A DNA stretch of 61,547 nt from Acidobacteriota bacterium (GTDB lineage Bacteria; Acidobacteriota; Blastocatellia; UBA7656), in assembly GCA_016201275.1 (NCBI GenBank), contig JACQDB010000029.1:1-61547 (forward strand). Direction: 5' to 3'. A program made the position numbers and the translations under genes. The notes below the pieces were generated by a model. That model searched no databases. It was not told the origin of the DNA and saw only the letters and a list, made by a program, of their open reading frames with translations. How positions within the stretch are numbered: position 1 is the first letter of the stretch; every line of letters begins with the position of its first letter. Of the stretch, positions 5,971 through 61,547 are shown one piece after another.

Positions 5971-6486
5971 CTCGACTTTGTACATTTTCAGAGGCGAACC
6001 AGTCTTGCCAATCCCCCCGATGGCAATCGGGGGATGCTTAAAGCCCAACCTACAAAACGCCGCGCAACATCTACTAATCCCCCCGATGGCAATCGGGGGA
6101 TAGTTAAAGTCCAACCTACGAAACACCGCCAACGAGAAACGAATCCCCCCGATGGAAATCGGGGGATGGTTAAAGTCCAACCTTGCACTTTGCTTGCTTG
6201 GTGTGTAGGCTGGACTTTAACCATCCCCCAACTGCCGTTGGGGGGATTCAGACGAATGGCCAAACCGCCTCGGCTCCCGTTGGGGGGATTCAGATGAATT
6301 GCCTCACTGCCTCGGCTCTCCATTGGTAGATTTTTTAGTGGCGAAGCAGCCTGATTTCATTGGCTTTTTCAACCCTTGGAATGATTGAACCTCAGCTTGT
6401 TGAGGTGAGGTTCAATCATTCCAAGCGCGCACCGCAACGTCAGCCCTTGATTAGTGTTGTTCAATCTGAAATTGTACAAAGTCGAG
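5971..6486. mobile_element. 516-bp non-autonomous element with 22-bp TIRs and a stem-loop array
   Basis: The left end CTCGACTTTGTACATTTTCA (5971 onward) recurs inverted at the right end (6465-6486) with one mismatch over 22 bp. Inside are four full stem-loops (about 6013, 6079, 6144 and 6224) and remnants. Each has a stem CCCCCGAT/ATCGGGGG or CCCCCAAC/GTTGGGGG and usually a GGCA/TGCC loop, followed by TTAAAGTCCAACCT. The array flips orientation at about 6190. Positions 6346-6486 contain a 140-bp segment with its own palindrome (CTTGGAATGATTGAAC). About 300 bp of this element recurs inverted at 61197-61500. No open frame looks real. Mobility is inference. Confidence 0.65.
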
Positions 6487-12048: not shown

Positions 12049-12673
12049 GTGCAACCCTTCCGTTGGGTATCCTGAAAATATGTGGTGGCCTAGTGCAGGG
12101 AAGAACGGTCGGACTGCCAATCAACACGGCAGCGGTTCTTCATCGCCTTATCATGTACACAGTTTCGCTTTTGGGGAAGACTTTTATTAAAGATTTTTTC
12201 AATCCCCCCAACGGCAGTTGGGGGATACTTAAAGTCCAGCCTACACCACAGGCAAGCAAAGTTTTTTGCAATCCCCCCAACTGCCGTTGGGGATACTTAA
12301 AGTCCAGCCTACACCACAGGCAAGCAAAGTTTTTTAACAATCCCCCAACGGCAGTTGGGGGATAGTTAAAGTCCAGCCTTGAGCCTCGGGCAAGGCTGGA
12401 CTTTAACTATCCCCCGATTGCCATCAGGGGGATTCATTTATCGTTGACAGCGTTGCGTAGGCTGGACTTTAAGCATCCACTGACTGCCATCGGGGGGATT
12501 GGCAAGGTTGGTGCGCCTCGTTTTGCCGCTTCGCAGAAAAAAAATTCGCTGAAGTGAGTTTTTTGTATTGACTGTTTTTCCGCTTGCCTCATAATGAACT
12601 CGCACTGCACAAGGCCACATAATTTTTCATCACACCTCATCCACACCTTAGTCCCGTAACGCTCTCACGAAGT
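12049..12673. repeat. Stem-loop repeat cluster B between kinase and regulator
   Basis: At least five stem-loops of the CCCCC..GGCA..GGGGG family lie at about 12203, 12273, 12341, 12411 and 12477. The first three are in direct orientation and spaced by a roughly 68-bp unit containing CCAGCCTACACCACAGGCAA and GCAAAGTTTTTT. The last two are inverted. The remaining sequence (12049-12190 and 12510-12673) should hold the divergent promoters of the kinase and the regulator; I could not identify clear boxes. Confidence 0.75.
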
Positions 12674-44209: not shown

Positions 44210-44605
44210 ATGAGAAGAGCATTGCGTAACTGGCCAAAGCTGGTTCTGGTGATGGTGCCGCTGGCGATTGTTGCCGTAGATGCCGTCGTGTTGTTTGCCG
44301 AGTGGCGACAACCGGCTCCGCAAAAAGCCATACGCCTGATCCGCGAGAGCAAGTCCCGCAAAGAGAATTTCACCGTTCAACAATATCTATACGCGACGGT
44401 GTATCACCGCCAGAAGAACGGCGAAGCGATAACGATAGACGGCTGGCAGGCCGCGCCCGATGCCGATTCAGCCGCCAATCAATTCACCATCACGTTTACC
44501 TACACGGACGCCAACGGCCAGCATCAAGCGTTGTGGACGGCGAACCTGAAAGAGAAAAAAGTCACGCCGCAAAATCAGGAAGCCAGCAATCTATCGTGGC
44601 AGTAA
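44210..44605 (+). CDS. Membrane-anchored protein of unknown function
   Basis: A 131-residue protein with an N-terminal helix (LVLVMVPLAIVAVDAVVLF) and an extracytoplasmic domain of about 95 residues (FTVQQYLYATVYHRQKNGEA, then NQFTITFTYTDANGQHQALW), probably a beta fold. No family is recognised. The longer upstream frame overlaps the preceding gene and is not used. It is the last gene before the cassette-like cluster and its base composition matches the rest of the genome. Confidence 0.65.
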   Translation: MRRALRNWPKLVLVMVPLAIVAVDAVVLFAEWRQPAPQKAIRLIRESKSRKENFTVQQYLYATVYHRQKNGEAITIDGWQAAPDADSAANQFTITFTYTDANGQHQALWTANLKEKKVTPQNQEASNLSWQ

Positions 44606-44652
44606 TCAGGCTACTTGGTTTAGGTGACTGTGAAGCCACTTTGAGGAAAACA

Positions 44653-45089
44653 ATGTCGTGGAAATGGTTTGGGGTGAAAACAGTGTACAGAACAGAGGCT
44701 GATGGAAAACCTACTTCACTGGATGCTTCCTACGATCAGAAGCGACACTAATAGAGGAGCGCGTTGTGTTAATCCGCGCTCGTTCATTCGATGAGGCAAT
44801 ATCAAAAGCAGAATCAGAGGCAAAAAGGTATGCGTCGGAAAAGTATCACAATCACTATGGTCAGATCGTCAAGCAAAGATACCTCAAAGCCTGCGATGCA
44901 TTTGAATTGTATGATGATCCTGATTCTGGGGTGGAAGTCTTTTCGACTACAGAGCTAGTTCCCAATAGTATTTCGGATGACGATGTAATCAATCAGCATC
45001 TTGGAGGCAAAGAAAGTAAAGATGAAATTCAAAGAAGGCGAAAATTCTTCAACGCGGAACTCGGACTGGACCCTAAAGGCGGCACCTAA
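44653..45089 (+). pseudogene. DUF4288-like gene split by a frameshift
   Basis: Two adjacent frames make one protein. The first starts at ATG 44653 (after GAGGAAAACA) and reads MSWKWFGVKTVYRTEADGKP, then YDQKR before a stop. The second frame, open upstream of its apparent GTG, reads TLIEERVVLIRARSFDEAI, continuing the same family text (RYLKACDAFELYDD, VEVFSTTELV). A one-base loss, or a two-base gain, near 44740 joins them into about 145 residues. The joined product resembles DUF4288 proteins. It may be a real pseudogene, a programmed shift or a sequencing error. It is followed at once by an attC-like site whose R'' box overlaps its stop codon. Confidence 0.7.
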
Positions 45090-45176
45090 CCACGGTATGC
45101 ACGGAAGTGTGAGCAGCGCAATTCTCATGCGTACTTGCAATACCGTTCCCGCACCCCCTGAACGGGAGCGTTAAAT
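45084..45176 (+). other. attC-like site 1 (93 bp)
   Basis: It begins with ACCTAAC, which fits the RYYYAAC inverse core and includes the TAA stop codon of the preceding gene. It ends with CTGAACGGGAGCGTTAAAT, whose GTTAAAT fits the GTTRRRY core site. The two boxes can pair over all seven positions if G-T pairs are allowed. The inner arms are less clearly paired. Confidence 0.5.
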
Positions 45177-45204
45177 GCCTATTAAATTATCGAGGTACAA
45201 AACC

Positions 45205-45834
45205 ATGAAACCTATATTGTCTGGGCTACTTTTGATTATCCTGGTTGCTTCATGCTCAAGCCCTAGTGCAGCACAAACTCAAAACTCTAAGCCGACATCT
45301 TCTGAAATAGAGCATGGCGAAATTGGGTATCAGGTACAGTTACAACTGCTCATTGCTTCAAATATCGCTACTGCAAAAACAGACTATCCCCCATCTTTAG
45401 AGGCTGTTGTAAAGCAACTCAATTCTTCCTTGCCTTTCAAGCACCACAGTCTGGTCGCCACTTACCTTTACAATGTCGCTGAGGCGAGTAGTTTGGAGGT
45501 AAGCGATGTGACCTATGCGGCGTTTGAACCGGGCGGCGGTCTTGCCCCGACTTTTCTTAATCTTTCGATCTCGGGAATCAAGCTGAATGCGAATAGCGAC
45601 ACGATTCATTTGACGAGATTTAGATTCGACATCCGTAAACGGATTTTCATACAGAAAGGACAAAGTGAGGGGGACAATAGCGCAAGACCTACCTATGATT
45701 CTGTAGTAACCGGCATAACGACAGAAATAAATGTGAGACCAGGTATTCCAACCATTGTAGGAACAATAACGAACGCGTTGTCTGATGGGGTGTTAGTGGT
45801 TGTGTTAACTATAAAGCGTTCAGGAGCGAGATGA
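45205..45834 (+). CDS. Lipoprotein of unknown function (cassette-like gene)
   Basis: A 209-residue exported lipoprotein with lipobox VASC near residue 17 after LLLIILVA. The mature part has YPPSLEAVVKQLNSSLPFKHH and ends in a beta-rich segment (GIPTIVGTITNALSDGVLVVVL) that recalls secretin-associated proteins, but I cannot place it in a family. The ATG at 45205 is chosen because GAGG lies nine bases upstream and the signal peptide starts there. It lies between two attC-like sites on the same strand as its neighbours. Codon use is more AT-rich than in the flanking genes. Confidence 0.65.
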   Translation: MKPILSGLLLIILVASCSSPSAAQTQNSKPTSSEIEHGEIGYQVQLQLLIASNIATAKTDYPPSLEAVVKQLNSSLPFKHHSLVATYLYNVAEASSLEVSDVTYAAFEPGGGLAPTFLNLSISGIKLNANSDTIHLTRFRFDIRKRIFIQKGQSEGDNSARPTYDSVVTGITTEINVRPGIPTIVGTITNALSDGVLVVVLTIKRSGAR

Positions 45835-45852
45835 TTCATTGCAAAGCGCAGC

Positions 45853-45946
45853 TTCTAACAAGACGTGGCAGCCGAGGCCGCGAAGTGCACGTTATGTAAT
45901 CATCCACAAGGCTGTTTGTAGCACCGCTGAACGGGCGCAGTAAATT
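45853..45946 (+). other. attC-like site 2 (94 bp)
   Basis: It starts with TTCTAAC, then GGCAGCCGAGG, and ends with ACCGCTGAACGGGCGCAGTAAATT. The end is nearly the same as in site 1 (CTGAACGGGAGCGTTAAAT), but the core GTT has decayed to GTA. The inner CAGC and GCTG pair as expected of L boxes. Length agrees with site 1. Confidence 0.45.
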
Positions 45947-45969
45947 GCTTTCGACAGTGAAAAGTAAAT

Positions 45970-46374
45970 ATGCGAACTCCAGCACATGATATAGTCCATA
46001 CAATTACCGATTGGTATGATGGCGCACGAGGCGGCATTGCTGACCTTGATGGTGTGCCGCATTATTACGAATGCCGATGGGATGACGCTACAAATGACTG
46101 GTCGGATGTTTATCTGCTGAACAGAATTGACGAGGAGACTTTTCGATTAGCAATGGAGGACTGGCAGATTTGGCTGCGGTGGAGAAAGGCTTTTGATGAA
46201 GGCAGAACCAATCTGGAAACCCATCCAGCATTACCCGAAGACAGACAGAGGCATAATGAACTGGAAGAAGTTTTAGCAAAGAGATTGGTAATCAACGACG
46301 AATCGCTTATACAGGCGAAAGGCGAATTTCTATACGGTCAACCAACTTTGGTTAAGTGGTCTGTCCTTCGCTAA
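45970..46374 (+). CDS. Conserved-looking hypothetical protein (cassette-like gene)
   Basis: A 134-residue cytosolic protein rich in Trp, Asp and Arg: ITDWYDGARGGIADLDGVPH, YYECRWDDATNDWSD and MEDWQIWLRWRKAFDEG. I recall similar proteins of unknown function in several unrelated bacteria, which fits a mobile gene. No domain name is assigned. It lies 24 bp past attC-like site 2 and is followed seven bases after its stop codon by site 3. Confidence 0.65.
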   Translation: MRTPAHDIVHTITDWYDGARGGIADLDGVPHYYECRWDDATNDWSDVYLLNRIDEETFRLAMEDWQIWLRWRKAFDEGRTNLETHPALPEDRQRHNELEEVLAKRLVINDESLIQAKGEFLYGQPTLVKWSVLR

Positions 46375-46380
46375 AGCGCA

Positions 46381-46412
46381 ATCTAACAATCGCATCAACC
46401 GGAGCGTTAGGC
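46381..46412 (+). other. attC-like site 3 (short, 32 bp)
   Basis: ATCTAAC (RYYYAAC) and GTTAGGC (GTTRRRY) both fit the consensus exactly, and CCGGAGCGTTAGGC resembles the ends of sites 1 and 2. The centre is missing, so this is shorter than a functional attC (usually about 57 bp or more) and may be a deleted site. Confidence 0.45.
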
Positions 46413-46449
46413 GTCTGGTCGAGTCGTAGGAATCTTGGGAGGTATTAAA

Positions 46450-46857
46450 ATGTCAAAACTTGGCTGTGATTGCGGCGGCATTATTTCCGATACCACTGAC
46501 AATATCCCCTACAAAGGAGCAATTATCCGAGATCAAGACGAGGAAATCCTTTATCAAAATATATCCAAGGACATCAATGCTTTTATAGACGCATTACTGC
46601 AAGATAAACGTGCAGAGTGGATACGCAGTTACTTCTCCCTTGGGTATCCGGTTGAGAGTATTAAAAACGAAGAGGTTGTTTCTGACATTCTCTCAGGTCA
46701 TACGATCCGGGCTGAACTCGACCTTTATCAATGTATGGAATGTGGAAGCATTAAAATACAGGAATCACCAGAATCACATAGGTTCAAGTCGTTTACTGCT
46801 AGCGCGTGGAAGAAAGGTAGCACAAGTATCTTGCAGTCTAAAGAAGAAGCTACATAA
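46450..46857 (+). CDS. Hypothetical protein with a possible zinc-binding pair (cassette-like gene)
   Basis: A 135-residue protein with an N-terminal CDCGG and a later YQCMECGSIKI, two cysteine pairs that could bind zinc together. The middle is helical (AFIDALLQDKRAEWIRSYFS). GGGAGG seven bases before the ATG at 46450 supports the start. No family is assigned. It lies between attC-like sites 3 and 4. Base composition is AT-rich, like the other genes of the cluster. Confidence 0.65.
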   Translation: MSKLGCDCGGIISDTTDNIPYKGAIIRDQDEEILYQNISKDINAFIDALLQDKRAEWIRSYFSLGYPVESIKNEEVVSDILSGHTIRAELDLYQCMECGSIKIQESPESHRFKSFTASAWKKGSTSILQSKEEAT

Positions 46858-46870
46858 GCCTGAATACGAC

Positions 46871-46931
46871 GCCCAACAATTGCGTCCAGAAGATAGTTTC
46901 ATAGTCCCGCCTTCAGGCGGCAGCGTTAGAA
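46871..46931 (+). other. attC-like site 4 (61 bp)
   Basis: GCCCAAC fits RYYYAAC and GTTAGAA fits GTTRRRY except for the last base; the size is right for an attC. The right half overlaps a separate palindrome of about 23 bp per arm (TAGTCCCGCCTTCAGGCGG, 46911-46968), so the site may have been altered by a later insertion, or be a chance match. Confidence 0.4.
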
Positions 46932-47040
46932 GGCGAAGGCTGCCACCTGAAGGCAGGACTACGAAACTCTTTGCCTTCTCACCCCGTTGAGTCACGAACC
47001 GAAAATGCTACGGTTTGGGCTGGGTGGAGGGAGTAAACCA

Positions 47041-47670
47041 ATGAGTGAGGATGACTACAAACAACTGGTCGAGCGTATGCTGCACAACGATGCCGCCAGC
47101 CCCATGATTTCAAGCGATACAGGGGTGGAGGCGGCGCAGCAAGCCGGTCAACTGGCAGCTCAGGAAGAGATTGAATGGGCGGTAGCGGGCGGACTGGCGA
47201 TGCACTTTTACGGCAGTCCGCGCATGACGAAAGACGTTGATATTATTGCCTCAAATCACTTATCTCTGCCGCCACAACATCCGTTGAGTTTTGGCGGCAG
47301 CAGCTACACCTTGCAAGTTGGCAAATACAAGGTTCAGGTTGATTGGATTGTCCGCAAGGATGGCTATCGAGAGTTGTACCGTAAGGCTTTGCAAGAGGCG
47401 ATTGGCTTGCCCAATGGTTTACGCGTGGTGACGCCTGAGTGGTTGGTGATTCTAAAATTCAACGCCGGACGGCAAAAAGACCTGGATGACATTGTGTTTC
47501 TGCTCAAGCAGGAGAAACTGGTTGATCGCCCTACGGTGAAGCAAAAGGTAGTGGAAACAGCAGGAGAATGGGGATGGCTGACCATGCTGCCGGGGTTTCG
47601 CCGTTTGTGTGCTTTGGCTGACGGCACGACGAAAGAGCCGAGCAAGTATTACGAGCAGGAAGAATTGTAG
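47041..47670 (+). CDS. Nucleotidyltransferase-fold protein, AbiEii/antitoxin-like
   Basis: A 209-residue protein with the nucleotidyltransferase motif AVAGGLAMHFYGSPRMTKDVDI near residue 48: GG, then a helix, then DxD for the metal. VTPEWLVILKFNAGRQKDLDD near 145 fits the helical part of the AbiEii and DUF6036-type families. Such proteins occur as the toxin half of AbiE systems or as MNT antitoxins, but no partner gene is adjacent. GGAGGGAG before the ATG at 47041 sets the start. It is the last gene of the cassette-like run; a terminator follows. Confidence 0.75.
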   Translation: MSEDDYKQLVERMLHNDAASPMISSDTGVEAAQQAGQLAAQEEIEWAVAGGLAMHFYGSPRMTKDVDIIASNHLSLPPQHPLSFGGSSYTLQVGKYKVQVDWIVRKDGYRELYRKALQEAIGLPNGLRVVTPEWLVILKFNAGRQKDLDDIVFLLKQEKLVDRPTVKQKVVETAGEWGWLTMLPGFRRLCALADGTTKEPSKYYEQEEL

Positions 47671-61196: not shown

Positions 61197-61547
61197 CTCG
61201 ACTTTGTACAATTTCAAATTGAACAACACTAATCAAGGGCTGACGTTGCGGTTCGCGCTTGGAATGATTGCACCTCACCTCAACAAGCTGACGTTCAATC
61301 ATTCCAAGGGTTGAAATAGCCAATGAAATCAGGCTGCTGCGCTGCTGGAAAATCCAGCAACGCAGAGCCGAGGCAGTTAGGCCATTCATCTGAATCCCCC
61401 AACGGAAAGCCAAGGCGGTTTGGCAATTCGTCTGAATCCCCCCAACGGCAGTTGGGGATGCTTAAAGTCCAGCCTACATACCGCAGGCAAACAAAGTTTT
61501 TTTGCAATCCCCCCAACGGCAGTTGGGGGATAGTTAAAGTCCAGCCT
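61197..61547. mobile_element. Second copy of the 516-bp repeat element, cut by the window edge
   Basis: CTCGACTTTGTACAATTTCA (61197) is the same terminal repeat as at 6465-6486. Positions 61197-61337 are near-identical, in inverted orientation, to 6346-6486, including the CTTGGAATGATTG palindrome. The CCCCCAACGGCAGTTGGGGG stem-loops follow at about 61440 and 61508, with the same GAGCCGAGGCAG and GTCTGAATCC spacers. The element continues past the window, so its far end is unknown. Confidence 0.7.

Follow-up and report, generated by a model that had tools for sequence, protein, structure and literature searches.

Clusters of attC sites with no integron-integrase nearby are known as CALINs (Cury et al., as summarised in PMC8618304). 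Such clusters may arise in several ways: through off-target insertion by an IntI encoded elsewhere in the genome, through loss of intI, or through rearrangement (PMC8618304). Loot et al. (2024, cited in PMC12901181) have described cassettes inserted at non-classical attG sites, and Acidobacteriota are listed among the phyla carrying integrons (PMC8618304). Here, we describe a related case in a window of 61.5 kb, which is the entire contig C71 of a 6.84-Mb genome in 162 contigs. A match to the Acido-Lenti-1 RNA within the window (Rfam) suggests that the DNA comes from Acidobacteriota. Positions 44620 to 46412 very probably hold three cassettes, followed by a probable fourth that carries gene 4; they are decayed and lie remote from intI, and their likeliest origin is capture by the integron now on contig C64 with subsequent off-target insertion.

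The small ORFs of the region 44653-47040 all lie on the + strand. A sequence-only reading had counted four to five small same-strand genes; there are four rather than five, since the ORF at 44653 reads as the N-terminal part of the DUF4288 gene, set off by a frameshift (Table 1). The same reading had called the region AT-rich beside its neighbours, and composition bears this out: G+C is 45.0% for the cluster (44620-46870), below all 238 windows of 2.25 kb sampled on the contig. Ordinary chromosomal genes flank the cluster on both sides. Gene order is conserved in other genera up to 44605, and beyond that point every relative departs from the window; thus, no empty insertion site can be demonstrated. 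The corresponding loci of six relatives contained no attC in 74 kb, and searches of family genomes recovered none of genes 1, 3, and 4. The TTAGGT at the left end, which is preceded by one extra T and has about a 1% chance of occurring within its 45-bp gap, is only suggestive as a putative edge of cassette 1. Directly after the cluster lies a nucleotidyltransferase-like gene (47041-47670) whose match to AbiEii is weak (E 4.9e-5). A comparison with phage DNA gave no match.

Table 1. Features of the cassette cluster and its surroundings, with copies of an ORF found beside intI
Feature	Coordinates	Strand	Remarks
Conserved chromosomal gene before the cluster	44210-44605		
TTAGGT, putative left boundary of cassette 1	44620-44625	+	exact complement of ACCTAA in the R'' box of site 1
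DUF4288 gene of cassette 1, reads as frameshifted	44653-45089	+	Pfam PF14119, E 1e-12; three-frame translation
Full-length attC site 1, well preserved in sequence but impaired in folding	45084-45176	+	R1 35.7 bits
Cassette 2 gene, 209 aa, lipoprotein-like N-terminus	45205-45834	+	ATG at 45205
attC site 2, with a preserved left half and R' changed to AGTAAAT	45853-45945	+	left half 14.3; full model 5.2 bits, background
Cassette 3 gene, 134 aa, family without assigned function that travels in cassettes	45970-46374	+	
attC site 3, collapsed, left half joined straight to R' GTTAGGC	46381-46412	+	17.1 bits, E 0.022 in window
Gene 4, 135 aa, presumably a fourth cassette, with no recognisable attC	46450-46857	+	
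Dispersed 74-bp palindromic repeat, source of the apparent site 4 R' box	46895-46968	.	inverted repeat; 61 genome matches
Copy of the 113-116 aa ORF	G000:C64:418-767 (= L009:418-767)	-	
Copy of the 113-116 aa ORF	L034:5908-6258	+	
Copy of the 113-116 aa ORF	L035:8426-8767	+	

To score the sites, we used a covariance model (R1) made from 30 aligned attC sites that lie beside intI genes in relatives of the same class. In a structure check of this model, 91.8% of cells pair, compared with 30-38% in slid controls, and both sides have changed at 14 of the 19 pairs of the alignment. The left half (R'' plus L'') was scored separately with a half-site profile. Four attC-like sites had been proposed between the genes. 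Under the full model, sites 1 and 3 rise above background, whereas sites 2 and 4 do not; the left halves uphold sites 1, 2, and 3, with scores of 14.2, 14.3, and 10.5 (third, second, and fourth best on the window's + strand), but not site 4. The coordinates and boxes stand as proposed for the first three, except that site 2 reads AGTAAAT where a GTTRRRY box had been assigned. The three left halves sit at three successive gene ends, and the best of 107 control ORF ends in the window scores 3.5. Among 203,094 background positions, sites 1 to 3 themselves included, no more than 9 score as high. Sites 1 and 3 have E < 0.05 in the window, on a contig without intI, under the class-specific R1. The Rfam search of the window returned no attC-type match.

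Site 1, with E-values of 2.5e-7 in the window and 2.7e-5 over the 6.84-Mb genome, is the only statistically safe full-length attC in the cluster, and it retains R'', L'', and R' in sequence. The 3' end of site 2 is 82% identical to that of site 1. The left half of site 3 closely resembles an attC on contig C145 of the same genome (TCAACCGGAGCG). Judged from its sequence, site 3 looks like an attC whose hairpin was deleted; relatives read GAGCG on both sides, which suggests that the deletion may have run between short repeats. By sequence, then, an attC lies directly after the gene in cassette 1 and in part in cassettes 2 and 3, and none follows gene 4.

The genes differ in how far they can be traced. 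The DUF4288 gene has its N-terminal part at 44653-44751 and the remainder in another frame up to 45089, and the profile match reaches upstream of the GTG at 44766; the gene reads as frameshifted, unless this reflects an assembly error. A DUF4288 search of the genome_contigs collection found no relative, and homologues in the phylum have no convincing attC after the gene. Gene 2 has distant chromosomal homologues in the phylum (matches in 21 of 297 genomes, its own included), and none of nine checked has a convincing attC nearby. Gene 4 has one remote homologue in the 297 genomes, with no convincing attC placed after it.

The family of gene 3 has no Pfam or NCBIfam match. Homologues of gene 3 stand before attC sites or attC remnants in four other lineages. 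In Ideonella oryzae and in a Proteobacteria MAG, an attC lies directly after the gene (42.5 and 17.9 bits, respectively). In genome G008, an attC left half (23.1 bits) follows directly, its GCCTAAC overlapping the stop codon, and the gene sits between two riboflavin genes, as judged from the flanking translations. In a Pedosphaera MAG, the homologue is followed by an R''-like left half, with several more attC matches at the locus. Other homologues, for example those in Hymenobacter, Bradyrhizobium, and Andreprevotia, have no attC after the gene, and no homologue was found in the viral contigs searched. The AlphaFold2 model has a mean pLDDT of 92. Foldseek returned no PDB match with E < 1, and the best VIA-align comparison (Z 5.7 over 51 residues) is uninformative on function. 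With gene 3, one new protein family carried by cassettes is added; its structure is predicted with confidence, and solved structures offer no clear counterpart. The proposal of a cassette cluster away from an integrase holds for the first three cassettes and gains strength from these homologues before attC elsewhere, but it does not extend to site 4.

The cluster had also been described as lacking an integrase. This is true of the window, and hence of contig C71, but not of the genome: contig C64 carries a full intI (925-1863) in a frame without internal stops, which scores 486.7 bits against TIGR02249 (cut-off, 265). Upstream of this intI, and reading away from it, are an attI-like GTTAGGC and then a first cassette, which runs to the contig end and closes with GCCTAAC, so that the array is broken off inside its first attC. 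With R1, the whole genome yields eight further attC sites with E < 1e-4 on five other contigs (C138, C145, C15, C46, and C36). On contig C15 (L104:6454-7553), three attC lie within 1.1 kb, one of them after a DUF6398 gene, which makes another small group of cassettes remote from intI.

Two side observations concern the integron itself. Between intI and the attI-like site, and divergent from intI, lies a conserved ORF of 113-116 aa that three genera of the family share; neither of two copies tested matched Pfam. In addition, the first integron cassettes in this genome (G000) and in G003 (L001:1-316 and L034:7300-9560) look non-coding and contain degenerate repeats like TTCACGGCGTGACTCGAAATGAG.

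The cluster has no intI or attI beside it and is linked to the C64 integron by presence in the same genome only. Given a stop-free intI and eight other attC sites on five other contigs, off-target insertion is the simplest route. Alternatively, the cluster could be a fragment of the genome's own array that was displaced by rearrangement, rather than the product of one-by-one off-target insertion. A run of three or four cassettes, all facing the same way, would fit such a displacement, as would the end of contig C64 inside the first attC. Yet the cluster lies within a 61.5-kb contig, between ordinary chromosomal genes, and the spread of attC over five other contigs is what off-target insertion predicts; we therefore regard displacement as rather unlikely.

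Do these sites still function? The attC hairpin had been expected to form on the bottom strand, and it is predicted for none of the four sites. Summed over the nine canonical pairs, the pairing probability is 5e-5 for site 1 and 0.008 for site 2. In contrast, four other attC of this genome (C138, C145a, C46, and C36) have sums between 8.5 and 8.8 out of 9, with every core pair above 0.85. The C145b and C15b attC of this genome also fold weakly. Because the sequence match has been retained while the fold has been lost, we read the sites as decayed, and on this basis the cassettes are probably no longer mobile. The opposite view, that they are still exchanged in trans by the genome's IntI, could draw on an intI without internal stops and on the R'', L'', and R' kept in the sequence of site 1. 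It is nevertheless improbable: the predicted L''/L' pairing of site 1 is close to zero, against more than 0.85 for all core pairs in the four well-folded attC, while site 2 is without an R' box and site 3 without a hairpin.

Some repeats of other kinds do imitate attC sites here. Site 4 scores at background under R1 (5.7 bits; left half, -5.5), and its GCGTTAGAA is the loop of the 74-bp palindromic repeat, other copies of which have a similar loop. The GTTAGAA taken for an R' box falls within this loop and thus is not an R' box; with no left half either, site 4 was rejected as an attC. That the remaining sites are likewise chance mimics among short dispersed repeats, as site 4 and the CCCCAAC...GTTGGGG palindromes that resemble R boxes in the window might suggest, is highly improbable in view of the genome-wide E-value of site 1, the left halves that stand at the ends of three genes, and the occurrence of gene 3 in cassettes elsewhere. 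In a simple scan, inverted repeats of the CCCCAACGGCAGTTGGGG type at 6226-6285, 12206-12371, and 61440-61528 imitate the R boxes of attC. A plain R''...R' pattern search of the genome was set aside, its 86 and 78 matches being drowned by chance (284 and 260 in the reversed control).

The explanation we favor is thus capture followed by off-target insertion and decay. We infer a route in which the cassettes would have been captured by the integron now on C64 and inserted into the chromosome after the conserved gene that ends at 44605, with the C64 IntI acting in trans. Site 1 would have lost the pairing needed for folding, site 2 its R' box, and site 3 its hairpin by a deletion, possibly between the short GAGCG repeats; the DUF4288 gene would have gained its frameshift, and mobility would have been lost. 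A broader and more tentative possibility, which we would not put beyond a plausible suggestion, is that one predicted-active IntI scatters cassettes singly or in small groups over the chromosome and that the window captures stages of their settling in. Under such scattering, hairpin folding would go first, followed by box loss and hairpin deletion, with the genes either kept or frameshifted. If true, the locus would preserve a legible history of how cassettes become domesticated outside arrays.

In methodological terms, a class-specific model combined with half-site scoring recovers attC remnants that the full-length model misses. Because such remnants can be recovered in this way, this class, in which 47 of 145 genomes surveyed have a strong intI match, probably holds more cassette-derived genes outside arrays than have been counted.

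Set against the known systems, the cluster is a real remnant of gene capture, though an ordinary one of a known type: short, decaying, remote from intI, CALIN-like, and probably seeded by the genome's own IntI. As in a CALIN, small genes, mostly of unassigned function, stand in tandem on the same strand and are followed by attC-type sites with no adjacent intI. Unlike a CALIN, the cluster has only one full-length site, the others being eroded or collapsed, and an intI is present elsewhere in the genome. Its cassettes resemble those inserted at attG in lying in the chromosome, away from the array of an integron that has its integrase in the same genome; they differ in looking old and in being known without a demonstrable insertion point. 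Finally, although the cluster in the window is separate from the genome's integron, the genome matches the Acidobacteriota chromosomal integrons in having its own intI, an attI-like site, and attC of the same type.
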